64,000 nt of DNA, taken from an uncultured Bacillota bacterium (lineage in GTDB: Bacteria > Bacillota > Clostridia > Christensenellales > Pumilibacteraceae). Position 1 is the stretch's first letter. Every line of letters begins with the position of its first letter. Of this stretch, positions 3,613 through 19,725 are shown piece by piece. The notes beneath the pieces are model-generated. The model saw only the letters and a list, made by a program, of their open reading frames with translations. It did no database searches and was not told the DNA's origin. The stretch spans positions 1 to 64,000 of the forward strand of contig CASFJH010000031.1 of NCBI GenBank assembly GCA_949294845.1, read 5' to 3'. The translations under genes were made by a program, and so were the position numbers.

Positions 3613-3671
3613 GGCGGCTCCTTTCCTGCTCGGCGAGCTTACGTCCGGTTTGCGGAAATCCATACTTTATA

Positions 3672-3700
3672 ATAATACAATAATCACGCCAATTTGTCAA
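3672..3700 (-). promoter_or_regulatory. Sigma-A promoter of the ANTAR-purF-carAB operon
   Basis: On the minus strand TTGACA (3700-3695), a 17-base spacer and TATTAT (3677-3672) form a near-consensus promoter. The predicted start near 3665 leaves a leader of about 53 bases. I found no paired hexaloop hairpins of the ANTAR target type in that leader. Confidence 0.8.
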
Positions 3701-3741
3701 CTTCCGCCGCCCTCTTGCTCCGAAAATCTTGAGCGTTTTCT

Positions 3742-3773
3742 AAAAGCCCGAAAGCAAAGCATTGCTCCCGAGC
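3742..3773 (-). terminator. Intrinsic terminator after the phosphoglucomutase gene
   Basis: A 12-pair stem (3773-3762 with 3757-3746, including G-U pairs) and a four-base loop are followed on the minus strand by TTTT. It lies 12 bases past the stop codon. Confidence 0.6.
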
Positions 3774-3784
3774 CTTTGAGAATA

Positions 3785-5443
3785 TCATACGAACGTTTTA
3801 TCCAGCCAATCGATTACCGACGCTATAATTACGGCGTTTTCGTCGGGTGTGCGGCTGGCGGTAATATAAAATTTTATGAGCGGCTCCGTTCCCGACGGAC
3901 GCACGATAAGCCGGACTCCCGATTCAGTCCTGAACGACAGAACGTTGGATCTGGGAAGATCCACTTTATCCTGCGTAAGATAGTCGACAACTTCGGTAAC
4001 CGGAGATCCGGCCAGCGAGTCGGGAATGTTTTTGCGCAGATTTTCCAATAGAGTCTGCATTTTGGTATGCCCTTCCGCTCCGGGGAACTCCTTAGACACG
4101 AGTTTATGCTGATAGGTGCCGAACAGATCGTACAGCTCGTTTATTCTGTCCACAAGCGTTTTGCCTGCGCGTTTATAGTATGCCGCCATACCGGCGACAA
4201 GCATGGACGCAACTATAGCGTCCTTATCGCGGACATACGTTCCGGCAAGGCAGCCGTAGCTTTCTTCAAAACCGAACACGAAACGTCCGGCCTCGCCCTT
4301 TTTTTCAAGCTTGCCTATAACGTCGCCGATATATTTGAAACCGGTAAGCACGTCGTATGTCTCGGGATTGTACTTTTCCGTCACTTTGAAGCCGAGCTCC
4401 GTGGTAACGATAGTCTTGACCAGTACGGGTTTTTCTGGCAGCGTGCCGTTCTGCGCTCTGCGCGCGAAGATATAGTCGGTCAGCAAAACGCCCGTTTCGT
4501 TTCCCGTCAACAGCCTGTAACCGCCGTCTGTTTTTGCGGCTATTCCTATTCTGTCGGCGTCCGGATCGGTCGCTATCAGTATATCCGCGCCGCGCTGTTT
4601 TGCAAGCTCAAGTCCGAGCTTAAGCGCTTCGGGCTTTTCCGGATTGGGATAAGGACAGGTGGGAAAATTACCGTCCGGCCGGCACTGTTCGTCCACTTTT
4701 ATGACCTCGGAAACGCCCGTTTCCTCGAGTATGCGCGGAACAAGCTTGTACCCCGTTCCGTTAAGCGCGGTATACACCGCTTTTACTCCCTCAGCCGAAT
4801 CAAGGCACTGTTCCTTAACCGCGGCGATGTAACGGTCGATAAGCGCGTCGTCTATATAGCGCACACTACCCTCTTTCAGGCACTCTGCGAGCGGTCTGAC
4901 CCGCACATCGAAAGGATCAACCGCGTCGATATAACCTGTCATTTCGGTTGCGCGAGCGTCAGTCAGCTGACAGCCGTCCGATCCGTACACCTTGTAACCG
5001 TTATATTTGGAAGGGTTGTGGCTTGCGGTTATCATAACGCCGATGTCTGCGCCCAGCTCGCGCGTCATAAAGGAAAGAAACGGAGTGGGCATAAGCTCTT
5101 TCGTGATATACGCCGTAATGCCGTTAACCGCGAACACTTCAGCCGCCGTATCGGCAAAGAGGTCGGAGTTTATGCGGCTGTCGCGGCTAACCGCCACTTT
5201 GCCGTAACCGTATTTTTTCATGCAGTCGGCTATACCCTGCGTGACCTTGCGTATGGTATAAATATTAAGACAGTTCGTACCTGCGCCCAGCTCGCCGCGA
5301 AGACCGCCGGTGCCGAATTCCAGTTCCTTATAAAACGCGTTGACAATCGCTTTGTCGTCGCCGCGCATTTTTTCCAACTGCGCTTTTACGGCCTTGTCGG
5401 TCACGCGCTCGCACCAAAGAGCGTACTTTTCGTATTCCTTCAT
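3785..5443 (-). CDS. Phosphoglucomutase/phosphomannomutase (PgcA type)
   Basis: The enzyme interconverts hexose 1- and 6-phosphates, most likely glucose phosphates for cell-envelope precursors. The 552-residue length fits the long PgcA-type phosphohexomutases. The phosphoserine loop ITASHNPSKYNGYK is present, with the metal loop DPDADR and the sugar loop FGFEESYG. The C-terminal phosphate-binding loop RPSGTEP is intact. I start it at 5443 because GGAGGG lies directly upstream; an upstream in-frame ATG at 5473 would overlap the ABC transporter gene. A terminator follows. A second, different phosphohexomutase lies at 61468-62970, so the two probably have separate substrates. Confidence 0.92.
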   Translation of the reverse strand: MKEYEKYALWCERVTDKAVKAQLEKMRGDDKAIVNAFYKELEFGTGGLRGELGAGTNCLNIYTIRKVTQGIADCMKKYGYGKVAVSRDSRINSDLFADTAAEVFAVNGITAYITKELMPTPFLSFMTRELGADIGVMITASHNPSKYNGYKVYGSDGCQLTDARATEMTGYIDAVDPFDVRVRPLAECLKEGSVRYIDDALIDRYIAAVKEQCLDSAEGVKAVYTALNGTGYKLVPRILEETGVSEVIKVDEQCRPDGNFPTCPYPNPEKPEALKLGLELAKQRGADILIATDPDADRIGIAAKTDGGYRLLTGNETGVLLTDYIFARRAQNGTLPEKPVLVKTIVTTELGFKVTEKYNPETYDVLTGFKYIGDVIGKLEKKGEAGRFVFGFEESYGCLAGTYVRDKDAIVASMLVAGMAAYYKRAGKTLVDRINELYDLFGTYQHKLVSKEFPGAEGHTKMQTLLENLRKNIPDSLAGSPVTEVVDYLTQDKVDLPRSNVLSFRTESGVRLIVRPSGTEPLIKFYITASRTPDENAVIIASVIDWLDKTFV

Positions 5444-8673: not shown

Positions 8674-9444
8674 TTACTCCGTAAGCGCCAACGCGTAAGC
8701 TACCTTGCAAAGCGCAATGTAATCATTGAAATCGATAAGAGTCGCGCCCGTCGAAACGCCGTTTACCGTCCAGACCCTGTCCTCGCCCTTTAACGTCAGC
8801 CCTTCGTCGTCAAAACCCTTAGACGCGACGTAATCGCATACCTTTTTGATATTGGCTTTCCAGCCGAGTCCCGAGCTGCCTTCAGGCCAGTACCCGTTCT
8901 TCGATTTGAGCCACCTGTCACCCAACCCGAGCGCCCCGGCCGCCGTATCCTTGAAAGTATTGTAAACACCCGTGCCGTCCGATTGCGCCACGCCGTAATT
9001 GCCGAGCTTCATCTGTTCGACGTACCATTTGGCGTTGAGCGAATCCTTCAGCCAGTTTTCCAGCGTTACCCCGTTGTTGACCTGCGTTAGACGGTAATCG
9101 GGATAGCCGTCGGCCTCCGGACTTACGGCGTCGAATATCTTGTCGCCTATTACTATCTTTTTGCCGAATCCTCCGGCCGTGAAAGCGTCTTCGTCGCCGT
9201 CGTAATCCTTAAAAGACGACTTAGCCGCCCAGTTGTAAGGCGTCTGCATTTCGTCGATGCTCACCGACGCTATCTTTCCGTCGGCGTCGACTTTGACAGT
9301 AGCCATGCCCACATAATGATTATGGACCAGTCCGTAAGCGGTAGCTTCTCCGCGCATATCCCTGCTCTCGTCGCAGGAAATCGCGCTTATAAGCATAACC
9401 GCGGCCGTCATAACGGCAAATGCGCCCAAAAAAAACTTTTTCAT
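8674..9444 (-). CDS. Lipoprotein with a TGAT flavinylation motif, last gene of the rnf operon
   Basis: A 256-residue exported lipoprotein. The signal peptide ends in the lipobox AISC, so Cys24 should be lipidated. Near the C-terminus, NGVSTGATLIDF (TGAT at 232-235) matches the motif on which ApbE attaches FMN to RnfG and to PplA-type lipoproteins. The rest (KVDADGKIASVSIDEMQTPYN early on) resembles FMN-binding domains weakly. The GGGAGGACGCTTT site sets the start at 9444; an in-frame ATG at 9549 would overlap rnfB. It lies 67 bases after rnfB. I infer a surface electron carrier working with Rnf. The exact family is not recognised. Confidence 0.8.
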   Translation of the reverse strand: MKKFFLGAFAVMTAAVMLISAISCDESRDMRGEATAYGLVHNHYVGMATVKVDADGKIASVSIDEMQTPYNWAAKSSFKDYDGDEDAFTAGGFGKKIVIGDKIFDAVSPEADGYPDYRLTQVNNGVTLENWLKDSLNAKWYVEQMKLGNYGVAQSDGTGVYNTFKDTAAGALGLGDRWLKSKNGYWPEGSSGLGWKANIKKVCDYVASKGFDDEGLTLKGEDRVWTVNGVSTGATLIDFNDYIALCKVAYALALTE

Positions 9445-9511
9445 AAAGCGTCCTCCCGTAAAGTAATTACAGTATTTGTAAAACAATACGGTTTTATCCC
9501 AGAACGGGATA

Positions 9512-10378
9512 TCAGGCGCCTTTTTTGAGTTCCGCGCTCTTATCCGCACTCCTCCCGCGACGGACGTGCGCTTCGAAATTAAACGGTATTATGCATTTTC
9601 TGGGGCAAACTTCGGCGCATTTCATACAGCCGATACACTTATCGTAATCGATAACGGCAAGGCTGTTCGACAGTTGAATCGCGCCGGTCGGACAGTTTTT
9701 TTCGCATCTTCCGCAGGCGATGCAGCCCTTTTTGCAAACGTCCGCCACCGCCTTGCCCTTATTGGTATTGGAACACCCCACATAGACCTTTGCGTCTTTG
9801 GGGATACGTCCTATTATTTTTTTCGGACAAGCCGCTACGCACGCTCCGCAGCTTGTGCAATGCGTATAGTCCACTTCGCTGACTGCGGTGTCCTTGTTGA
9901 CCGATATGGCCGAATATTTACACGCGTCGGCGCAGGTTCCCAGTCCCATACAGCCGGTAATACAAGCCTTGTTGCCCCCGGCCAGCAGTTCGGCCGATTC
10001 GCAGTCGCCGAACCCCTGATACGAATACTTGTTGCGGCAGGCGTTTCCGCCTATGCAATGCACTACTGCGACGGTCTCGCGGCTCTTTTCCTCGCTCATG
10101 CCCAGAATACGCGCTATATTCTTTTTGTTGGCGGCCGAAGTGGGATTGCACGAGGACAGTTTGGCCTCGCCTTTAAACAAAGCTTCGGCGAACGCGTCGC
10201 AGCCGGCATATCCGCATCCGCCGCAGTTGGCTCCCGAAAGATTGCGCACTATCTCGTCGATACGCGCGTCGCGGTCGACGGCCATTTTCTCGCCGAGAAA
10301 CGCCAGGCTGAACGCGACGACCGCTCCTATCGCCGTAACCACAAGCACAGGCACTACGAACGTCATGAAAATTTCCAT
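9512..10378 (-). CDS. rnfB: Rnf complex subunit RnfB (iron-sulfur protein)
   Basis: RnfB passes electrons from reduced ferredoxin into the Rnf complex. After one N-terminal membrane helix, the 288-residue protein has the GANCGGCGYAGCDAF cluster domain. Two cysteine-rich stretches and two classical ferredoxin motifs follow (CTSCGACVAACP, CIACGRCEKNCP), and CIGCMKCAEVCP closes the series. That is at least three [4Fe-4S] clusters plus the N-terminal one. The start lies one base after rnfA. Length and motif order are as in clostridial RnfB. Confidence 0.96.
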   Translation of the reverse strand: MEIFMTFVVPVLVVTAIGAVVAFSLAFLGEKMAVDRDARIDEIVRNLSGANCGGCGYAGCDAFAEALFKGEAKLSSCNPTSAANKKNIARILGMSEEKSRETVAVVHCIGGNACRNKYSYQGFGDCESAELLAGGNKACITGCMGLGTCADACKYSAISVNKDTAVSEVDYTHCTSCGACVAACPKKIIGRIPKDAKVYVGCSNTNKGKAVADVCKKGCIACGRCEKNCPTGAIQLSNSLAVIDYDKCIGCMKCAEVCPRKCIIPFNFEAHVRRGRSADKSAELKKGA

Positions 10379-10379
10379 A

Positions 10380-10973
10380 TCACCCTCCGAAACTGAGTCC
10401 CGTAAAACCGGTAAAAGCCAGCGACATAATACCGGCTATGATAAGCGCGATCGGAAACCCGCGGAACAGCTTGGGGATGTCCGCACGCTCCAGTCTTTCC
10501 CTTATGCCGGCCATGAGTATCAGCGCGAGCGTAAAGCCCAGTCCGACGCACACCGCATTGACGAAAGTATACAGCAGATCGTATTGCTGAGTTATGCCGT
10601 AATTGGCGGTAAACAATACGGCGCAATTAGTCGTTATAAGAGCGAGATATACGCCCAGGGACGTATACAGCGCCGGACTGGTTTTTTTAAGCACTATATC
10701 CAGCAGCTGAACGAGCGAAGCTATAATGAGAATAAACGTTATCGTCTGCAGGTACTCCATGCCGAGCGGTACCAGAATATAGTGGTAGATGAAAAAACAC
10801 ACTACGGCCGATACGGCCAGCACGAAAGTTACCGCCATTCCCATACCGACGCTTGAGTTTATCTTTTTAGAAACGCCGAGAAACGGACATATTCCTATCG
10901 ACTGATTGAGCACTATATTGTTGGTCAGTATTCCTGCCACTATTATGGTGATTATTTCTCCGGCCATTTTCAC
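10380..10973 (-). CDS. rnfA: Rnf complex membrane subunit RnfA
   Basis: A 197-residue, six-helix integral membrane subunit homologous to NqrE and RnfE. It contains the family stretch NNIVLNQSIGICPFLGVSKK near the N-terminus, including one of the conserved cysteines thought to help bind the membrane iron centre with RnfE. The ATG overlaps the end of rnfE by four bases. It works inside the Rnf complex coupling ferredoxin oxidation to ion translocation and NAD reduction. Confidence 0.96.
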   Translation of the reverse strand: MKMAGEIITIIVAGILTNNIVLNQSIGICPFLGVSKKINSSVGMGMAVTFVLAVSAVVCFFIYHYILVPLGMEYLQTITFILIIASLVQLLDIVLKKTSPALYTSLGVYLALITTNCAVLFTANYGITQQYDLLYTFVNAVCVGLGFTLALILMAGIRERLERADIPKLFRGFPIALIIAGIMSLAFTGFTGLSFGG

Positions 10974-11572
10974 GCCTCCCTCTTCAGCGCGCGCAGCTTG
11001 CCGTTACGGTATTCCTTATATCTGCCGAGCAATGCGTTGAACAGCGCCATCATAAACCCTAAAACTATAAAACCGCCGGCCGTTTTGGTAAACACGGTCA
11101 GTCCCGCCGCGCCCAAAGCCTGCCTGATCGCGCCGAGCAGGACTATCGAAAGCACAAAACCCAGTCCCATGCTCAGTCCGTCCACGGTAGCCGACAGCAC
11201 GTCGTTTTTTGAGGCGAAAGCTTCCGCGCGGCCTAAAATTATACAGTTGACGACGATAAGCGGTATAAACGCGCCTATGCTGTCGTTAAGTGAAGGCAGA
11301 AATGAAGTGATAAACATCTGCACCAGCGTGACGAACGTCGCGATTATCACTATATAAGCCGGAAGTCTCACTTTGTCGGGAATAACCTTTCTGAGCAGCG
11401 AAATGAACAGATTGGAGAACACCAGCACGAACGCCGTGGCAAGCCCCAGTCCCAGCGCATTGGTCACAGACGTAGACTGCGATATCGTAGGACACATTCC
11501 CAGCACCAACACAAACACCGGATTGTTCAGAATACCGCTTAGCGCGGCGCTCTTCAGTTTTCCTGCGTCCAT
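10970..11572 (-). CDS. rnfE: Rnf complex membrane subunit RnfE
   Basis: A 200-residue, six-helix partner of RnfA. NNPVFVLVLGMCPTISQSTS near the N-terminus contains the conserved Cys of the pair that binds the intramembrane iron-sulfur centre. The start overlaps the 3' end of rnfG by 19 bases and the stop overlaps rnfA by four. The order rnfC-D-G-E-A-B matches the usual clostridial operon. Confidence 0.95.
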   Translation of the reverse strand: MDAGKLKSAALSGILNNPVFVLVLGMCPTISQSTSVTNALGLGLATAFVLVFSNLFISLLRKVIPDKVRLPAYIVIIATFVTLVQMFITSFLPSLNDSIGAFIPLIVVNCIILGRAEAFASKNDVLSATVDGLSMGLGFVLSIVLLGAIRQALGAAGLTVFTKTAGGFIVLGFMMALFNALLGRYKEYRNGKLRALKREA

Positions 11573-12699
11573 ACGTTTACCTCCCCGAATCCGCCGACGT
11601 ATTCGGCAGCCTGCGGATAAAATTCAAGCGCGTTTTCCACCGCATGTTTTATAGCCGGTCCGGTCGCTCTGAGCGTGGCTCCGGTAGTGCCTGTCAGCAC
11701 GTTGTCGGTCGCTTTTATCTGCTCCAGAGTCATACCCGACAGTATCGACGTCAGATTGGCGCCGGTAAGCTCGAAATCCTTAGCGGGTTTGCCGTCCGGT
11801 ATGTCGGATAGCGCTTCGTTTTCTTCCGCGACAGCAACCGCCTCTATCGCGCCGTCTTTTACCGTAACTATAAGTCCCAGAACAGCTCCCTGCCAGCCCG
11901 AACCTTTACCTGCGACTATAATCTCGCCCGCGTCCGAAACATAAATTCCGTATACGGCGTTCTTACTTTCCGACGGAACGGGATAGGACGTGAAGCGCTC
12001 TCCGGCCGAGACCGACTTGAGCGCGGCTATAAGAGCCGCGTCGGTAACCGCCTCCGGCGCGGCTTCGGGAATTCCGCCGCCGTAAAATTCGGCAATGTAA
12101 GCAGCCGCAATATTGACGGCGTTAGACAATCCGTTTACCGACGCCTTGTTGGTAGCGCCCGTCGCCGCCAGAATATCGCCGGCCGAAACCGCGGTCTTTC
12201 CTCCGGCATATTCGAGAAACGCGGCAAAATAGTCTGCGTTGAAAATATTGTTTGGCCCGGTTGGATTCTCTCTCTGCTGTTTTACCGAAGCGGATATGAT
12301 CTTGTTTTCCTTGTCGAAAGACGTGAGAACGATTATGACGGGATTGCCGCCGTAACCCTGCGCCTGCGATTCGACCACCCGTATACCTGTTTTTTCACCT
12401 TTTGCGATAAAATACGAGACCAGAACTTTATTATTTCCGTCAACGCCGTTTTCGTCGTTGAACTTCTGAAGTGCCTCGGCGTCAGCGTCGTCCATGGTAA
12501 TATATCCGCCCGAGTACGCTTCGTCTCCGGACACCTCCAGTCCGACCAGATCGGCGATCATTCCCGCCGTTTCGCTGTCGAGGCTGGCCTTGTATTCGGG
12601 GAAAAATGCATTCGCCAAAGCAAGCAAGGCTACGGCCACAGCGGATATAACAGCCATTACCGCGACTGAGCGGAGAGTGTTTTTCATGGATTTTGTCAT
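11554..12699 (-). CDS. rnfG: Rnf subunit RnfG with a duplicated FMN-binding domain
   Basis: RnfG carries covalent FMN on the outer face of the membrane and passes electrons through the Rnf complex. At 381 residues this protein is nearly twice the usual size. After one N-terminal helix (about 10-32) it has a first FMN-binding domain with TGAT at 180-183. A second domain (about 215-370, including KGSGWQGAVLGLIVTV) ends in TGAT at 339-342. Both Thr residues would be ApbE targets. The gene overlaps rnfD by four bases and rnfE by 19. The assignment is secure from context; use of both sites is inferred. Confidence 0.92.
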   Translation of the reverse strand: MTKSMKNTLRSVAVMAVISAVAVALLALANAFFPEYKASLDSETAGMIADLVGLEVSGDEAYSGGYITMDDADAEALQKFNDENGVDGNNKVLVSYFIAKGEKTGIRVVESQAQGYGGNPVIIVLTSFDKENKIISASVKQQRENPTGPNNIFNADYFAAFLEYAGGKTAVSAGDILAATGATNKASVNGLSNAVNIAAAYIAEFYGGGIPEAAPEAVTDAALIAALKSVSAGERFTSYPVPSESKNAVYGIYVSDAGEIIVAGKGSGWQGAVLGLIVTVKDGAIEAVAVAEENEALSDIPDGKPAKDFELTGANLTSILSGMTLEQIKATDNVLTGTTGATLRATGPAIKHAVENALEFYPQAAEYVGGFGEVNVWTQEN

Positions 12700-13799
12700 C
12701 TCAGCTCCTCCGCCTTTTTAATTTTCTTTTTCTTTTCCCTGACATATCCGAAAGGTTTGGGTACAATGAATTTATCTATGAGCGGCGAAGCTATATTCAT
12801 TATAACTATGGCGAAGCTCATGCCTTCCGGATAGCCGGCAAAGACTCTTATAAGCATGGTAATGAGCGCTATGCCCACTGCGAATACCGCGCTGCCGGCG
12901 AATGTGTTCGGGCTGGTCGAATAATCGGTCGCCATATACACCGCGCCGAAAATCAATCCTCCCGACAGGATATGCGCAAACATATTGTTCATCAGTCTGG
13001 CACCCGACAGGTTCATCGAGATCAGTCCGTCGAAAACGAGCGCGAAAAGTCCTGCGGAAGCGACTAAAATGAGCGGAATTCTCCAGTCTATGACCTTGCG
13101 GACAGACAGATAAACGTAGCCTATGAGAATGGCGATCACGCACGTCTCGCCCACCGCCGCCGATCCCGTGTTGCCGGTAAACAGCTGCATGAACAGGCTG
13201 CCGGCGTTTGTCGCTTTATCGCCCGACAGCCAAGTGGCGCCGGTTGAAACCTCGCCTATTATGCCTATTGTCTGAACGGCCGCAAGCGGCGCGAACGCAA
13301 ACAGGAAAATACGTCCCATCGCCGCCGGATTGGCAAAATTCTTGCCTATTCCGCCGAACATCATTTTCACGATAACTATCGCGAACACCGATCCCAAAAG
13401 GCACAGTATCACCGTATCGAAGCTGAACGCTATGTTGTCGGCTATATGCTCGGAGCCTTTAAAGTATATGTTCAGATCCCATGCGTCCATTTTGATTTTA
13501 GCCGGAAGGTTGAGCGTAAGGATCACGGCAGTAACCACCGCGGAAAAATCGAATATGCTCGAACCCGCTATACCTTCACGGTTCCACTTGCCGCTTCGGA
13601 TAAGATTGAAAAGCAGCTCCGAACCTACGCAGCCGATGACGCAAACGACCAGATTTATCGCCACATGATATCCGAAATAAAGTATTGCCGCAACCACGCA
13701 CGGCAAAAGAGCAATAAGCACGTCAAACATTACGCCGGCGGTGGTATTATCGGGTTTCGTTATGTGCGGAGAAGCCGATACAGTATAAAGTTCGCTCAT
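12696..13799 (-). CDS. rnfD: Rnf complex membrane subunit RnfD (flavoprotein)
   Basis: A 367-residue integral subunit homologous to NqrB. The flavinylation motif STGATWL (TGAT at 186-189) stands where most RnfD proteins have SGATPL, directly before the GNTGSAAVGETC and VIDWRIPL landmarks. HILSGGLIFGAVYMATD downstream is also typical. ApbE should attach FMN to Thr189. Start and stop overlap rnfC and rnfG by four bases each. The C-terminus is short and lysine-rich (EKKKKIKKAE), as expected for the cytoplasmic end. Confidence 0.95.
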   Translation of the reverse strand: MSELYTVSASPHITKPDNTTAGVMFDVLIALLPCVVAAILYFGYHVAINLVVCVIGCVGSELLFNLIRSGKWNREGIAGSSIFDFSAVVTAVILTLNLPAKIKMDAWDLNIYFKGSEHIADNIAFSFDTVILCLLGSVFAIVIVKMMFGGIGKNFANPAAMGRIFLFAFAPLAAVQTIGIIGEVSTGATWLSGDKATNAGSLFMQLFTGNTGSAAVGETCVIAILIGYVYLSVRKVIDWRIPLILVASAGLFALVFDGLISMNLSGARLMNNMFAHILSGGLIFGAVYMATDYSTSPNTFAGSAVFAVGIALITMLIRVFAGYPEGMSFAIVIMNIASPLIDKFIVPKPFGYVREKKKKIKKAEELR

Positions 13800-15088
13800 T
13801 TTCCGGCCTCCTTGATTTTCTTTTTAGCAAGACGTATTGACTGGACAAGAGGACGTTTTGCCGGACACACATAAGCGCAGCAGCCGCACTCGATACAATT
13901 TTTTGCGCCGTACTTTATCGCGCCCTGAACGTCTCCGTGCAAAATACAGCCGTCTATATACATAGGCATCAGCCGCATAGGGCAGGCTTTGGCGCATTTT
14001 GCGCAGTTTATGCAAGGTCCGGGCGCGCCCACAAATGCGGATTCGGCCGTCATAAGCAAAAGTCCGCTCGTGGTTTTTGTGACGGATATATCCGCTGAGG
14101 CGGCGGTGATTCCCATCATGGGACCGCCGCTGATAAGCTTCACGGTATCGTCTTTCGCGCCGCCGCAGAACTCTATCACGTCCGAGTACAGCGTTCCCAC
14201 GGCGACGTTCAGGTTGGCAGGCTCGGCTATTCCGTCGCCGGAAACCGTCATACAGCGCTCGTACAGCGGCTGTCCCTTTCTGACGGCCAGATGCGCGGCA
14301 TACGCAGTCTGCACATTGCTCACTATACAGCCGACCGAAGCGGGTAGCTTTCCGGGCGGCACCTTTCTTCCTGAAACGGCGTAAATGAGCTGTTTCTCCG
14401 CTCCCTGAGGATATTTCGTCTTTACGACGACAACTTCGGCGTTCAGTTTGCCGGAAGCTATCTTTGCGGATATGAGATCGGCCGCGTCCTTTTTGTTCGC
14501 CTCCAAGGCGATGGTAGCGTGGCGTACTCCCGTCGCTTCGGCAAGCAACAGCGCGCCGTCGAGAAATTCGTCGGCCTTTTCGAGCATGACGCGGTAATCG
14601 CACGTCAAATACGGCTCACATTCCGCGCCGTTTATTATAAAGGTATCGACCGACGTCTTATGATCGAGCTTTACAACAGTCGGAAATCCGGCTCCGCCCA
14701 TGCCCACTATACCGCAATCGGCTACGCGCGAGAGAATGTCCTGACGCGACGGGTTGTCAAGCGCGGCGAACGAGACCGTATCGTACTTGTAATCGTTTTC
14801 GATTACGATATGTCTGCATTTGCCGGTAAGAGTCGCGCGGTCTTCGACCGCTTTGACGCACCCCGAAACAGACGCGAATATATCAGCGCTTACGGCGCCG
14901 GCGGCGGCCGCTATCTTTTGTCCGCGGCGCACACAGTCGCCCGGATTGACCAGCGGAACAGCCGGTTTGCCCAGATGCTGAGCTACCGGTATATATACCG
15001 TGGCGGGCGGCGGCATTATGCGGATCGATCTGTCGGCGGCAAAGAATTTCTGCGCTTTCGGATGTATTCCGTGCCTGAAAGTATTCAA
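13796..15088 (-). CDS. rnfC: Rnf complex subunit RnfC (NADH-binding, iron-sulfur)
   Basis: RnfC is the peripheral subunit that binds NAD(H) and FMN. The 430-residue protein has the N-terminal RnfC barrel with PPPATVYIPVAQHLGKPA. A flavin/NADH domain follows with GMGGAGFPTVVKL. Two C-terminal [4Fe-4S] motifs are present: CINCAKCAKACP and CIECGCCAYVCP. It starts with TTG at 15088 behind a strong GGAGG site. As the first gene of the operon it follows a good promoter at 15127-15155. Confidence 0.96.
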   Translation of the reverse strand: MNTFRHGIHPKAQKFFAADRSIRIMPPPATVYIPVAQHLGKPAVPLVNPGDCVRRGQKIAAAAGAVSADIFASVSGCVKAVEDRATLTGKCRHIVIENDYKYDTVSFAALDNPSRQDILSRVADCGIVGMGGAGFPTVVKLDHKTSVDTFIINGAECEPYLTCDYRVMLEKADEFLDGALLLAEATGVRHATIALEANKKDAADLISAKIASGKLNAEVVVVKTKYPQGAEKQLIYAVSGRKVPPGKLPASVGCIVSNVQTAYAAHLAVRKGQPLYERCMTVSGDGIAEPANLNVAVGTLYSDVIEFCGGAKDDTVKLISGGPMMGITAASADISVTKTTSGLLLMTAESAFVGAPGPCINCAKCAKACPMRLMPMYIDGCILHGDVQGAIKYGAKNCIECGCCAYVCPAKRPLVQSIRLAKKKIKEAGK

Positions 15089-15164: not shown

Positions 15165-15566
15165 TCACTTATCGGCCTGACGGCGCTTTTTGTTTTCCTT
15201 GATCTTGCCGTAAATTATGCTTGCGAGCTGATATAAACCGAGAATGATGAGAAATATGCCGAAATACATCGAAAGATCAACCCCTTTTACCCGGCGCGAA
15301 ACGTAAGCCGCAAGTATGCTCATCGCCGTCGCCGGAACTGCCGTCCACGCGAAAGCCTTGAAATCCACCAGTTTGTTTTTAAGATGTATTGCCAGCGCAA
15401 CTACAGACATGGGAACGAACGCGATAAGATTTATCGACTGCGCCGTGTGCTGCTCAATGTCCGTAAACAGCGTTATCAGCGGAATCAGCAGAGTGCCTCC
15501 TCCCATACCCATTCCGCCTATAACGCCGCCGGCAAGCCCTACCGCAACGAGAATAAATATTTTCAT
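15165..15566 (-). CDS. TauE/SafE-family membrane protein, half-size (second of a pair)
   Basis: A 133-residue protein with about four membrane helices. It opens with the family's glycine-rich stretch (GGVIGGMGMGGGTLLIPLI). Full-length TauE/SafE proteins of about 250 residues are internal duplications of such a half. Here the neighbour upstream supplies another half, so a heterodimer is likely. The family is linked to export of sulfite and other organic or sulfur anions; the substrate here is unknown. The gene starts 10 bases after its partner. Confidence 0.8.
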   Translation of the reverse strand: MKIFILVAVGLAGGVIGGMGMGGGTLLIPLITLFTDIEQHTAQSINLIAFVPMSVVALAIHLKNKLVDFKAFAWTAVPATAMSILAAYVSRRVKGVDLSMYFGIFLIILGLYQLASIIYGKIKENKKRRQADK

Positions 15567-15576
15567 GCGTTGCCTC

Positions 15577-15942
15577 TCAGAAAAAAGTAAGCTTTACGCC
15601 GGCCGACAGCATCAGCAGAGAAAACAGCACGCCCACTACGGTAGGATTAAGTTTTTTGAGCAGCAACGCTCCGGCTGCGCCGCCGGCTACCACCCCGGCC
15701 GATATCCATCCGGCGGCCGGCCAGTCTGCATAGCCGTAAATAATGTAGGTTACGGCGCTTGCCACGGATATAGGCAGAATGATGAAAAGCGCGGTGGCGT
15801 GCGCGCGTTTGGTCTCGTATCCGAGCGCCTTTTCCAGAAGCGGAACGAGCAACATTCCGCCTCCTCCGCCGAAAAAACCGTTGACAAACCCAACGGCAGC
15901 GCCTCCGAACGTTCTTACAATTTTTTCCGTTATCTTTTTCAT
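15577..15942 (-). CDS. TauE/SafE-family membrane protein, half-size (first of a pair)
   Basis: A 121-residue half of the TauE/SafE fold with the motif GFVNGFFGGGGGMLLVPLLE followed by about three more helices. I place the start at the ATG at 15942 (MKKITEK), which gives the usual short cytoplasmic N-terminus. An in-frame ATG at 16002 would add 20 polar residues. Neither start has a clear ribosome site. It is divergent from the large surface-protein gene at 16148. Partner at 15165-15566. Confidence 0.76.
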   Translation of the reverse strand: MKKITEKIVRTFGGAAVGFVNGFFGGGGGMLLVPLLEKALGYETKRAHATALFIILPISVASAVTYIIYGYADWPAAGWISAGVVAGGAAGALLLKKLNPTVVGVLFSLLMLSAGVKLTFF

Positions 15943-16036
15943 ACTTAAATAGTTTTGCTCATTATCGGACAAATTACCCATAGGCGCAGTCAAAAACGTC
16001 ATAGTAAAAATTTTTCCGAATTCCGCTTTTATTTGA

Positions 16037-16065
16037 TTGCAAAATTTGCCCGAATAATATATAAT
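16037..16065 (+). promoter_or_regulatory. Promoter of the large surface-protein gene
   Basis: TTGCAA (16037-16042), a 17-base spacer and TATAAT (16060-16065). A second TATAAT begins seven bases further on, at 16067. The leader to the ATG at 16148 is about 75 bases and ends in AAGGTGA. Confidence 0.75.
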
Positions 16066-16147
16066 TGTATAATGTGTACGGTATGCCGTGCTTTATGCTC
16101 GAAGCTGCCGTCTATTTACGGAAAATCTTTTAAGACAAGGTGACAAA

Positions 16148-19100
16148 ATGGTAAAGGCAACAAAATTCAAACGATTGACTCTGTGCGTGACTTCGGCCGT
16201 CATATGCTTTTTACTTGCGTTCGGCTTTTTAAACGGCATCTCCGCGGCGCGCGCAGCTGACGATAGCGATCCTTTCACCGATTACCCCAACACCGCAGTA
16301 AGCGTGAGCAACCCGCAGTTTTCGGACAAGGGCAGCGGTTCGCCCGCTTCTCCGTCCAACTGGACTGCTGACGGCAACGCCGGTAATTCGGTAAGCGGCA
16401 TAATCAGTTTGAACGCTTCCGATTACGGCGCCAACCGCGACGACTACAAATTGGATATCTATCCCGAATACTCCGGATCAACTTATCCGACGACTCCTTT
16501 CGGCGGCAGCAAGTATCCCAATACCAATCAAAACGTTCTCCTTATCAACACCAACAGAGACGCGACCGTTTACGGCTATACGTCCTCCACCTTCACACTG
16601 GAAGCCAACAGATATTATTCTGTGTCCGTGTACGTTAAAACGGGCGACTTCGCGGAAGGCACCGGCGCCAGCATCCGCGTCGGCGGCGTCGACACCGGAA
16701 AGGGCGAAGAAAACGAGCTCGTGTTCCGCAACATCGACACTGTAGATAAAGTAGGCAAAGATACCGTACTCAGCGAGTCAAACGATTACGGCTTCGTCAG
16801 ATACACTTTCTATATCGGCACTTCGTTCGTAAGCTCCACCGCTTCGGTCAATCTTTCGGTAGGCGCTAAAAATTCGGACGAGGACAAGGAGATCAATTAT
16901 TTCGATCCGGCAAACGGCTATGCGTTCTTCGCCAATCTCGAAGTATTCGAGCTGTCTCCGATGACTTTCCGCAGTCTGACCGAAAAAGTTGCGTCGGACA
17001 CCGTTATGGTAAAGGATCTCAATGCCGGCCTTACCTATCTTACCGGTCAGCCGCTTGCGCTGGACGATTTTTCAAAAATCGAGAACACCGAAGACTCCGA
17101 GCTTTCTACCGGCAACGCTTTCGCGTTCGTATATAACGCAAATACCTACGAACCTACCGACAGTTACAACTTTACGACCGATCCGGTCTCCCCTAACGGC
17201 AAATCGGGCAACAGCAACATCTTCGGACTGAGCACCTACAATACGCGCGACGACGCTTACGACTCGGCCACGATAGGTTTCAGAACCAAAGCGACTTATA
17301 CCGTGCGCCGCAATTCCTATGTCCGTTTCAGCGTATGGGCGAAAACGCAGGACTTAAGCGGCAGCGCTTATATTAAGCTTAATACCGACGACGAAGTGCT
17401 CAACGGCAGCGACGACGGCAAGCTTACGGCCAACTCGGCAACCGTTTCCTCGTCCGAGGGCGCCGCGGCGCGCTACGGCTGGACCGAGTACGCTCTGTAT
17501 GTCAAGGGCAGCTCGTTACGGGACTATGAAGTTTATATCGAACTCTGGCTCGGCACCGACGCCTCTACGACGGCTCAGGGCATCGCCATGTTCTCGGAGA
17601 TCAGAGCGGAAGAGATAACTTATACTCAGTACACCGACAATAACGCAAACGGCACGGCTGTTACGTTCGATCCCACCGTCGCCGATACCGGAGTTACCAA
17701 CGGTCGCTTCTACGAAGTAGGCGATTACGACGAATACAAATATCCTCTCGCCCCGTCCGGATGGACTTACTACACTCCCGACACCGTCACTACGACCGGC
17801 TTTTCGACGGAAAAGCTGGACAATAGCGACGACGTCATTTCCGGTATAATCCCCTACGACATCGCTTCGGTCCCCGAAGAAAACAAAAATTATCCCATTG
17901 CCTATAACCCGGCTTATTACACCGCTTCCGGCAACCTGCTCATGATACACTACGGCGGCAACGACGGCACTGCTGCCGGATATGCTTCCAGTTCGCTTAC
18001 TCTTACGGCCAACACGCAGTATATCATAAAAGCCAATCTGATGACATACGGTATATCCGGTTACGGCGCAAACCTTGTGCTCAAAAACTCGGATAATACG
18101 GTCATCTCCTCCATCGAGCGCATCTCGGCTGACGAATTTACCGATTATACTTTCTATGTGCAGGGCGGTTCAGTCGATTCCACCGTCACTCTCGAGATCT
18201 GGCTCGGCCTTAACGATCGCACCGACAACAAGCAGAAACTTGCTTCCGGAACGGTGTTCGTCAACTCCGTTTCCATGTCAAGCGTGGATTCGTCCTCCGA
18301 AGACGACGTAGCCGCCTTCGAATCGGCGTACAACTCTTACTTCGCGGCGCTTAAGAACGGATCCGCTTCAAAACTCGGCTACGCCGCTTACACCTTCGCC
18401 TCCGAAACGTTCGACGCTTACGATGTATACGATACCGGCGCCGTCAAGACCGCGTACAACTGGAAGCTGACCGCCGGCGACGACGTGACGTTCGGAATTA
18501 TCAAAACGTCCAACAGAGAAAGCACCTCTCTTATTCCCGGTTACTTCGAACTGGGCGATACCGAAAATCTCAGCTCGGGAATACTGTTTATACGCAATAA
18601 TTCCGCAACTTACTCGAGAGTCGAGCTTACTAACAAATATTCGCTCGCGGAAAACACTTATCACAAACTGACTCTAAGGCTCAAAGTTGATTTTGAGAAC
18701 TTTAACAGCTCGGATACGGCGATCGGCGCCGGTATAGAGCTGACCGGTACCGACTACCTCTTCGAAGACGTCAAATCCACCGCTTTGGTAAAGGACGCCA
18801 CCACCGATACCGAATATTACAGAGAATTCACTTTCTATATCCATGCCGAAGCCGCGGCTGAAGTGGGCGTTGCTTTCACTCTCGGCGGTAACGAATTTAC
18901 CAACCAAAACGCGCGCGGAATTATCTACGTCACCAATATCGATATTCAGGAAATCGGCAATACCGATTACGAACAGAGCGTCACCGCAATCGAAGACTAT
19001 AAAGACAAGAACGACGCCGACGATCCTTACAACATTGCCGCCGAAATAAAAGCTTCCGACAGCGGCTCGGACACCGAAACGGATACCGATACCGAAACGG

Positions 19101-19669
19101 ATACCGATACGACTCAGCCGTCCGGCACAAGCTGGTGGCTCATTCCTTCTATACTCTTCGCCGTTGCGATAGTGATAGCCATCGTCGGATTCTCTATCAG
19201 GAAGTTTGCCGAAAAACGCGCAAAGCGCAAGACCACGCACAAAACGGCCAATTACGACCGCCGCGTAACGCTCAACAGACAACAGACCGCTCAGAAAACG
19301 TCGGGCGGTAGCAGAGTAGTTACCGACACGAAGGACGTATTCGAGACCTTTGACGACAACGCGCCTACCCCTGCCGAATCAGCTAAAACAGCAGATACGC
19401 AGCCTAAGGATTTATTCGAGACTTTCGACGACAACGTTTCCTCCTCTGATACGGCCGGCTCTCAAACTCCTTCTGCCGACGCAACCGCCGACGCTGCGGA
19501 GAAAGCGGCCGCGGCGACATCGGACGCGCCTGCCGAAAAGAAGGAAGAAACCGCGGCTTCGGACGCCGAGCCAAAAAACTCCGCGAAGCCCGATGCCGAA
19601 AAAGCTGCAGCGACCGGAAAAGCTCCGGTCGTAAAGCCCGACGCTTACACAGATGAGTTTGAGGACTGA
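16148..19669 (+). CDS. Large modular cell-surface protein with C-terminal membrane anchor and cytoplasmic tail
   Basis: I do not recognise the family. The 1173-residue protein has a signal peptide (cleavage likely after Ala36, ARA). Four related beta-rich modules follow at about 40-270, 275-497, 510-715 and 735-940. Modules 1 and 3 share an opening of the type YP-x-x-P-x-x-WT, and the modules share a central YSVSVYVKTG-like strand and a closing aromatic FYI/YVKG-like strand. This pattern resembles carbohydrate-binding or adhesion jelly-roll domains. A Glu-Thr-Asp repeat spacer (about 974-989) leads to one membrane helix (about 995-1018). A basic stop-transfer segment and a 150-residue acidic/alanine tail follow. 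The tail repeats KDVFETFDDN and KDLFETFDDN and ends YTDEFED. The start is set by AAGGTGA before 16148. No enzymatic motif was seen. Confidence 0.85.
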   Translation: MVKATKFKRLTLCVTSAVICFLLAFGFLNGISAARAADDSDPFTDYPNTAVSVSNPQFSDKGSGSPASPSNWTADGNAGNSVSGIISLNASDYGANRDDYKLDIYPEYSGSTYPTTPFGGSKYPNTNQNVLLINTNRDATVYGYTSSTFTLEANRYYSVSVYVKTGDFAEGTGASIRVGGVDTGKGEENELVFRNIDTVDKVGKDTVLSESNDYGFVRYTFYIGTSFVSSTASVNLSVGAKNSDEDKEINYFDPANGYAFFANLEVFELSPMTFRSLTEKVASDTVMVKDLNAGLTYLTGQPLALDDFSKIENTEDSELSTGNAFAFVYNANTYEPTDSYNFTTDPVSPNGKSGNSNIFGLSTYNTRDDAYDSATIGFRTKATYTVRRNSYVRFSVWAKTQDLSGSAYIKLNTDDEVLNGSDDGKLTANSATVSSSEGAAARYGWTEYALYVKGSSLRDYEVYIELWLGTDASTTAQGIAMFSEIRAEEITYTQYTDNNANGTAVTFDPTVADTGVTNGRFYEVGDYDEYKYPLAPSGWTYYTPDTVTTTGFSTEKLDNSDDVISGIIPYDIASVPEENKNYPIAYNPAYYTASGNLLMIHYGGNDGTAAGYASSSLTLTANTQYIIKANLMTYGISGYGANLVLKNSDNTVISSIERISADEFTDYTFYVQGGSVDSTVTLEIWLGLNDRTDNKQKLASGTVFVNSVSMSSVDSSSEDDVAAFESAYNSYFAALKNGSASKLGYAAYTFASETFDAYDVYDTGAVKTAYNWKLTAGDDVTFGIIKTSNRESTSLIPGYFELGDTENLSSGILFIRNNSATYSRVELTNKYSLAENTYHKLTLRLKVDFENFNSSDTAIGAGIELTGTDYLFEDVKSTALVKDATTDTEYYREFTFYIHAEAAAEVGVAFTLGGNEFTNQNARGIIYVTNIDIQEIGNTDYEQSVTAIEDYKDKNDADDPYNIAAEIKASDSGSDTETDTDTETDTDTTQPSGTSWWLIPSILFAVAIVIAIVGFSIRKFAEKRAKRKTTHKTANYDRRVTLNRQQTAQKTSGGSRVVTDTKDVFETFDDNAPTPAESAKTADTQPKDLFETFDDNVSSSDTAGSQTPSADATADAAEKAAAATSDAPAEKKEETAASDAEPKNSAKPDAEKAAATGKAPVVKPDAYTDEFED

Positions 19670-19690
19670 TTAAAGCAACAAAAATAAAAG

Positions 19691-19725
19691 AGGTTCCTCT
19701 CGTATAGCGAGCGGAACCTTTTTTT
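19691..19725 (+). terminator. Intrinsic terminator of the surface-protein gene
   Basis: AGGTTCC pairs with GGAACCT around an inner CTCG/CGAG stem, followed by a run of seven T. It lies 22 bases after the stop codon. Confidence 0.9.

Follow-up and report, generated by a model that had tools for sequence, protein, structure and literature searches.

What does a large surface protein anchored by one membrane helix contribute to a bacterium when neither Pfam nor NCBIfam gives it a name? This question is raised by a gene at 16148..19669 of the window considered here, i.e. the whole stretch of 64,000 nucleotides that was analysed (contig CASFJH010000031.1 of assembly GCA_949294845.1), from an uncultured bacterium of the Pumilibacteraceae (hereafter, the own family) in the clostridial order Christensenellales (the order). 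An earlier note, made from the sequence alone, had presented the product as an unrecognised four-module surface protein with repeated cytoplasmic motifs, and it is still nameless in both databases. The strongest fact that we found was absent from that note: the gene lies beside a split pair of TauE/SafE genes. Our working hypothesis, which we prefer to its rivals and hold tentatively, is that the surface protein would work with a two-piece TauE/SafE transporter as an extracytoplasmic, lectin-like subunit, and that its tail would dock a cytosolic partner.

The surface gene adjoins a split pair of TauE/SafE genes

The three genes at the centre of the analysis are the following.

16148..19669, forward strand: gene of the surface protein (coding sequence with the stop included; translation of 1173 residues)
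15577..16002, reverse strand: tauC, half-size TauE/SafE gene and divergent neighbour, matching positions 122-237 of the PF01925 profile (87.4 bits, cut-off 32.6)
15165..15566, reverse strand: tauN, half-size TauE/SafE gene, matching profile positions 1-112 (72.5 bits, cut-off 32.6)

Both halves exceed the curated PF01925 cut-off, the half that matches the C-terminal part of the profile comes first, and tauC and tauN stand back to back with the surface gene. They are the only PF01925 matches of the source genome; PF01925 was present in 14 of 14 control genomes.

In 41 stretches that were picked by the surface protein alone (L031-L071; 22 from the own family, 19 from others), at least one TauE half was detected with a hidden Markov model in 37, namely in 20 of the 22 own-family stretches (not in L048 and L050) and in 17 of the 19 others (not in L059 and L070). 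By blastp, the 19 other-family stretches contain tauC in 16 cases, rnfC (and rnfD) in 5, TsaE in 2 and the SDR gene in none; some of the own-family stretches are short, which lowers the counts of far genes there. Order-wide, and among the matches listed, the surface gene was placed in 117 genomes, a half gene in 149 and both in 102. A half gene lies at most 3 kb upstream of the surface gene in 100 of these 102 genomes (12 families), and the orientation is divergent in 95 of the adjacent cases and co-directional in five. In the two exceptions, G139 and G167, the surface gene and the half gene are on different contigs, and because the surface gene of G139 (L059) is not at a contig end, adjacency in G139 was either lost or misassembled. 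Adjacency also outlasts rearrangement, with tauC inverted in L041 and a co-directional order in L068 and L125, and stretches of f15 and f20 that were fetched for the TauE pair also have the surface gene beside it. Because the surface gene usually adjoins the genes of the two-piece transporter, these data suggest that the three genes (surface protein, tauC and tauN) work together. The gene had been described as standing alone; this is valid for its transcript but not for its neighbourhood, in which the divergent TauE halves are widely conserved.

A single-sequence search at E 1e-3 found the surface protein in all 74 of 74 own-family genomes (its own included) and in 28 of 77 sampled genomes outside the own family, a 27-member profile matched 204 of the 297 genomes of the order, and nearly all listed places of the surface gene are one gene per genome, or its pieces. 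A class-wide sample gave matches at E 1e-6 in 27 of 391 genomes, 14 of them in the order; the remaining 13, outside the order, cover short module-sized stretches only. We conclude that the surface protein family is widespread in the order and essentially single-copy. Searching the PDB by sequence returned no relative of the window protein, and the best match of a profile search by sequence there was a phage depolymerase at E 0.0055, which is a weak hint. Viral contigs searched with the family alignment gave no usable pattern, and PADLOC gave 0 matches for four proteins.

The modules are related to each other and one is predicted to have a CBM4/9-type fold

Translation bears out the layout given in the earlier note from the signal peptide to the C-terminus. 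The extracytoplasmic part and the membrane helix comprise the following elements.

16148..16258, forward strand: signal peptide region, residues 1-37 (approximate), a hydrophobic stretch behind a basic N-terminus, read from the sequence
16259..16972, forward strand: module M1, residues 38-275 (hhalign to M2, M3 and M4: E 3e-29, 2e-24 and 8e-20)
17000..17647, forward strand: module M2, residues 285-500 (hhalign)
17654..18313, forward strand: module M3, residues 503-722 (AlphaFold2 model similar to CBM4 and CBM16)
18350..18991, forward strand: module M4, residues 735-948 (hhalign)
19055..19117, forward strand: acidic Thr-rich spacer, residues ~970-990, read from the sequence
19139..19198, forward strand: single membrane helix, residues ~998-1017, after WW (WWLIPS), from sequence and alignment

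A low-confidence full-length AlphaFold2 model on two sequences (mean pLDDT 40, pTM 0.29), which was used solely for the boundaries of strands and helices, puts the membrane helix at 999-1025.

M1-M4 are related, as had been claimed: all six profile pairings align in hhalign, with E from 3e-29 to 2e-15. For M3, AlphaFold2 was given an alignment of eight modules taken from the window protein and L031, and the resulting model has a mean pLDDT of 68 and a pTM of 0.72, with residues 111-180 at 85-91 and most of the first 90 residues low. The top four Foldseek matches of this model are the carbohydrate-binding module (CBM) CBM4-2 (1k42), a porphyran-binding module (8xmz), a hyaluronan-binding module (4d0q) and a CBM16 module (2zey), with E ranging from 1.6e-6, reached by CBM4-2, to 3.4e-6. 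A second structure comparison gave Z 12.8 and a root-mean-square deviation of 3.3 over 148 residues for the hyaluronan-binding 4d0q, and Z 12.4 to 10.7 for CBM4 and CBM16 entries; the porphyran-binding module is also among the matches between Z 12.8 and 10.7. As modelled, M3 is thus a jelly-roll beta-sandwich of CBM4/9 type, in agreement with the beta-rich modules of the earlier note; the CBM-like fold of M1, M2 and M4 is assigned through homology to M3 alone.

The sequence link between the modules and CBM families is indirect because PF02018 and PF22637 matches sit in relatives outside the order and not in the window protein. None of the 27 family members matches PF02018 or PF22637 at E 0.01, and the Pfam matches that do occur in the alignment, each confined to a single one of the 27 members (E 8e-4 to 6e-3), were attributed to chance. 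Among the 13 genomes with relatives outside the order, eight stretches were inspected and six proteins from four stretches were scanned. Four of these six are protein O-mannosyltransferases, two of them with CBM_4_9-type matches just under the cut-off; one is a 244-residue module-plus-helix protein with PF02018 above the cut-off, and one is GT87-like. In L145, L149, L150 and L151, clostridial protein O-mannosyltransferases have N-terminal modules that are related to M1-M4, and L149 also has a distinct gene for a module plus helix (3637-4371), which adjoins a protein O-mannosyltransferase gene.

The M3 model and the distant relatives with CBM_4_9 matches support a ligand-binding-like ectodomain, which is how the earlier note had viewed the outer part. 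A shared fold by itself shows no function, and while the predicted fold of M3 matches that of a known carbohydrate-binding family, no established role follows from the match.

The mannosyltransferase relatives were the source of the idea that the Thr-rich spacer is O-mannosylated, which we rejected because the source genome has no PF16192 (PMT_4TMC) match (PF02366 was not searched). The same negative result bears on a reading in which the surface protein is a client and not a subunit: the TauE pair would supply or remove a small anion, on which the modification or assembly of the surface protein, or of its glycan ligand, would depend. Gene adjacency would be expected under this reading too, but of the window neighbours that were followed, none that stays next to the three genes is a modifying enzyme, and we regard this reading as the least probable of the explanations considered here.

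The cytoplasmic tail carries short conserved motifs

The cytoplasmic tail of ~156 residues has no recognised domain and contains four short motifs.

19253..19261, forward strand: juxtamembrane YDR motif, residues 1036-1038, at least 90% conserved in the family alignment
19331..19360, forward strand: KDVFETFDDN, residues 1062-1071 (sequence and tail motif counts)
19406..19435, forward strand: KDLFETFDDN, residues 1087-1096 (sequence and tail motif counts)
19652..19666, forward strand: C-terminal DEFED motif, residues 1169-1173, the protein ending YTDEFED (sequence and tail motif counts)

Motifs were counted in 41 non-redundant own-family tails and in a bin of 41 others, which includes one own-family tail (L102). 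In the own-family tails, the YDR-type motif, sought in the first 45 tail residues, is present in 38 of 41 (shuffle mean 1.23, maximum 5), the C-terminal motif [DE]x[FYL]x[DE] in 36 of 41 (shuffle mean 0.30, maximum 3) and the inner motif [YF]xxFD[DE] in 22 of 41 (shuffle mean 0.14, maximum 3). Because shuffling leaves shared descent in, these counts document non-randomness and not, by themselves, selection. All three motifs recur in close homologues, the YDR-type and C-terminal ones in most own-family tails and the inner FETFDD-type motif in just over half of them, and the earlier note is supported as far as short conserved motifs in a divergent tail are concerned. Many other families have short and basic tails. 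Those of f29 (L053, L054, L121, L122 and L123, from small genomes) are long, K/E-rich and coiled-coil-looking instead of acidic, and keep YDR.

In the source genome, which is ~90% complete, DNA matches to [DE][DE][FY]x[DE]-stop number four: this gene, two matches that lie opposite other open reading frames (ORFs) and one match with TGG replacing the stop; the narrower [DE]F[DE][DE]-stop is confined to this gene. No other plausible gene of this genome ends in [DE][DE][FY]x[DE] (forms with L, or with any residue at -4, were not searched). With this close C-terminal form confined to a single plausible gene, nothing points to a docking system common to several membrane proteins. The inner FxxFDD has three further DNA matches in the source genome, one of them inside an ORF that by eye is glycosyltransferase-like.

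Could the protein be a signalling receptor, in which binding of an outside ligand would be read by a cytosolic partner through the FETFDDN-type docking motifs? The conservation of motifs in an otherwise divergent tail would fit such a role, as would the predicted ligand-binding-like fold outside; against it, the tail has no recognised domain, the inner motif is missing from all 41 tails of the other-family bin, and the TauE halves are the only window neighbours beside most other-family copies, a result that covers relatives of window genes and is compatible with a lineage-specific partner. On balance, we consider a signalling receptor improbable.

Transcription signals and flanking genes

The transcription signals and the flank beyond the TauE pair are as follows.

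16037..16065, forward strand: promoter-like TTGCAA-17-TATAAT, from a consensus scan, conserved upstream of own-family genes
19686..19724, forward strand: intrinsic terminator, a hairpin followed by a T run (folding: -21.9 kcal/mol, z -6.1)
9512..15088, reverse strand: rnfC, D, G-like, E, A and B, a flank on the strand of the TauE pair and downstream of it, outside the conserved core

The gene has a promoter and a terminator of its own, as had been noted, and the hairpin at 19686-19724 is absent from the list of a consensus terminator scan of the window. The reading frame is open further 5', from a GTG at 16088; the ATG at 16148 was chosen as the start with AAGGTG directly 5' of it, and 13 of the 20 divergent regions inspected from the own family likewise have AAGGTG before the start. 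Defined as TTGC[AT], 15-18 bases and TATAAT within at most 320 bases upstream of the gene, the promoter type precedes 19 of the 23 own-family genes, against a shuffle mean of 0.07, and just 5 of the 37 surface genes of other families.

Half-size TauE/SafE genes are found repeatedly in the order, including cases without the surface gene. In two of the 22 own-family stretches (L032, 5300-7240, reverse strand; L042, 11494-13404, forward strand), tauN and rnfC are in one open frame, for which fusion, coupling and assembly error are candidates; in L032, AAGGAG and TTG still precede the rnfC part of the joint frame. In the window, the RnfG-like protein (11554-12699) has 381 residues and matches rnfG models weakly, and 8674-9549 on the reverse strand encodes a 291-residue protein without an NCBIfam or PADLOC match that has blastp relatives in 7 of the stretches inspected.

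A model for the surface protein and the points that weigh against it

In the model that we prefer, the membrane part would be a TauE/SafE-type (putative anion) transporter made from two half-size proteins. Outside, four CBM4/9-like modules would bind a glycan, either from the envelope or from the surroundings, and a single helix would anchor the surface protein beside the transporter. Inside, a tail predicted to be largely disordered would present YDR at the membrane followed by acidic-aromatic peptides, and these peptides, the C-terminal [DE]x[FYL]x[DE] in particular, may dock a cytosolic partner, which is probably not the transporter. The role of the surface protein as an outer subunit is proposed by analogy with MamO and MamE (below).

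Several observations weigh against this model. The link between the surface protein and TauE consists of gene order only. As for the proposed lectin function, non-lectins share the predicted fold of M3, with cyanobacterial Stig cyclases tied in Z and MAM domains only slightly lower; Pfam gives the window protein no CBM match (PF02018, PF22637) at E up to 1; and no sugar site was recognised because, among the 12 invariant residues of the family alignment, 8 are glycine. As for the tail, YDR is present in 16, the C-terminal motif in 14 and the inner motif in none of the 41 tails of the other-family bin, and the tails of three f20 members are just 9-13 residues long. As for the pairing, 15 of the 117 genomes with the surface gene have no half gene among the matches listed (7 of these 15 have one outside the matches listed, and 8 have no match at 1e-10), and G006, G022, G024, G130, G281, G178 and G286, all with the surface gene, have no half gene at E 1e-3. 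Conversely, in f9, f11, f13, f22, f28, f32 and one f25 genome, no recognised surface gene adjoins the TauE pair; the contigs of f7 and f27 are too short to judge. Because each gene also occurs without the other, the TauE pair is likely older and more widely spread, and the coupling would be a property of a large clade. Co-loss was tried as evidence for coupling and rejected: G101 (f29, with a listed completeness of 100%) has neither the surface gene nor the TauE pair, and because the neighbourhood gene TsaE gives no match either, a missing stretch is likelier there than co-loss despite the completeness score.

Finally, surface proteins from genomes without the TauE pair keep the C-terminal motif in three of six cases (L048, L050 and L115) and lack it in the other three (L070, L114 and L116). 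Because the motif survives in half of these proteins, the tail partner is probably not the TauE pair, and we rejected the idea that the tail serves only to dock on the pair. The persistence of the gene and of its C-terminal motif in pair-less genomes also speaks for a different explanation, namely that the protein is an envelope scaffold or adhesin, the modules of which would bind wall or foreign glycans while the tail anchors to an internal structure; the TauE pair would then be a neighbour by way of a shared divergent control region, and the promoter type kept by most own-family genes would be in line with this. However, the adjacency in 100 of 102 genomes and its survival of orientation changes exceed what a passive neighbourhood would give, the rnf and SDR neighbours did not persist, and the promoter type is rare upstream of the genes of other families. 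We rank a scaffold or adhesin as the main competitor, itself unlikely and less so than the client and receptor readings, and retain the model of a lectin-like subunit beside a two-piece transporter as the preferred one.

Comparison with known systems

The two halves resemble the TauE/SafE (DUF81) putative anion transporters in that both pass the PF01925 cut-off, and differ from them in being split into two genes, with the C-terminal half first, beside a surface protein gene. In the literature, TauE proteins are said to possibly move sulfite or organic sulfonates (PMC4287615, PMC4794232), and almost nothing about the TauE/SafE family is described as understood as of 2015 (PMC4287615). The same papers describe MamO and MamE of magnetotactic bacteria as TauE joined to protease-type domains, with the TauE domain of MamO required for MamE activation (PMC4287615, PMC4794232). 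The likeness to our case is the tie between a TauE membrane domain and an extracytoplasmic domain; the difference is that MamO and MamE are each one polypeptide with a protease-type domain, whereas in the stretches inspected the surface protein and the two TauE halves each have a frame of their own.

The ectodomain shares with CBM4/9 and CBM16 (PF02018, PF22637) the predicted fold of M3, and some relatives in other orders match these families; unlike them, the window protein combines four modules with a membrane anchor, lacks a recognised catalytic domain and has neither a Pfam match nor a recognised sugar site. Clostridial protein O-mannosyltransferases are, through their N-terminal part, among the closest relatives found outside the order, but the window protein has no transferase part and its genome lacks the PF16192 match. 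The combination seems new, and every part of it is of a known kind. No description of the surface gene/TauE pair was found in the literature searched, which covered few subscription papers.

A more far-reaching version of the preferred model is that these proteins form a new envelope complex in much of this clostridial order, in which a heterodimeric half-TauE transporter would have a dedicated single-span lectin subunit, and the acidic-aromatic C-terminal peptide would couple contact with a glycan outside to anion flux or to a cytosolic partner; we consider this version a long shot, behind the scaffold or adhesin and ahead of the receptor. As regards the biology of the two families, the analysis draws attention to a surface protein that is conserved in a large bacterial order, together with small tail motifs that are open to testing. 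TauE/SafE proteins are very widespread yet little understood, and a lectin-like gene neighbour that is kept lineage-wide offers a direct handle on them.

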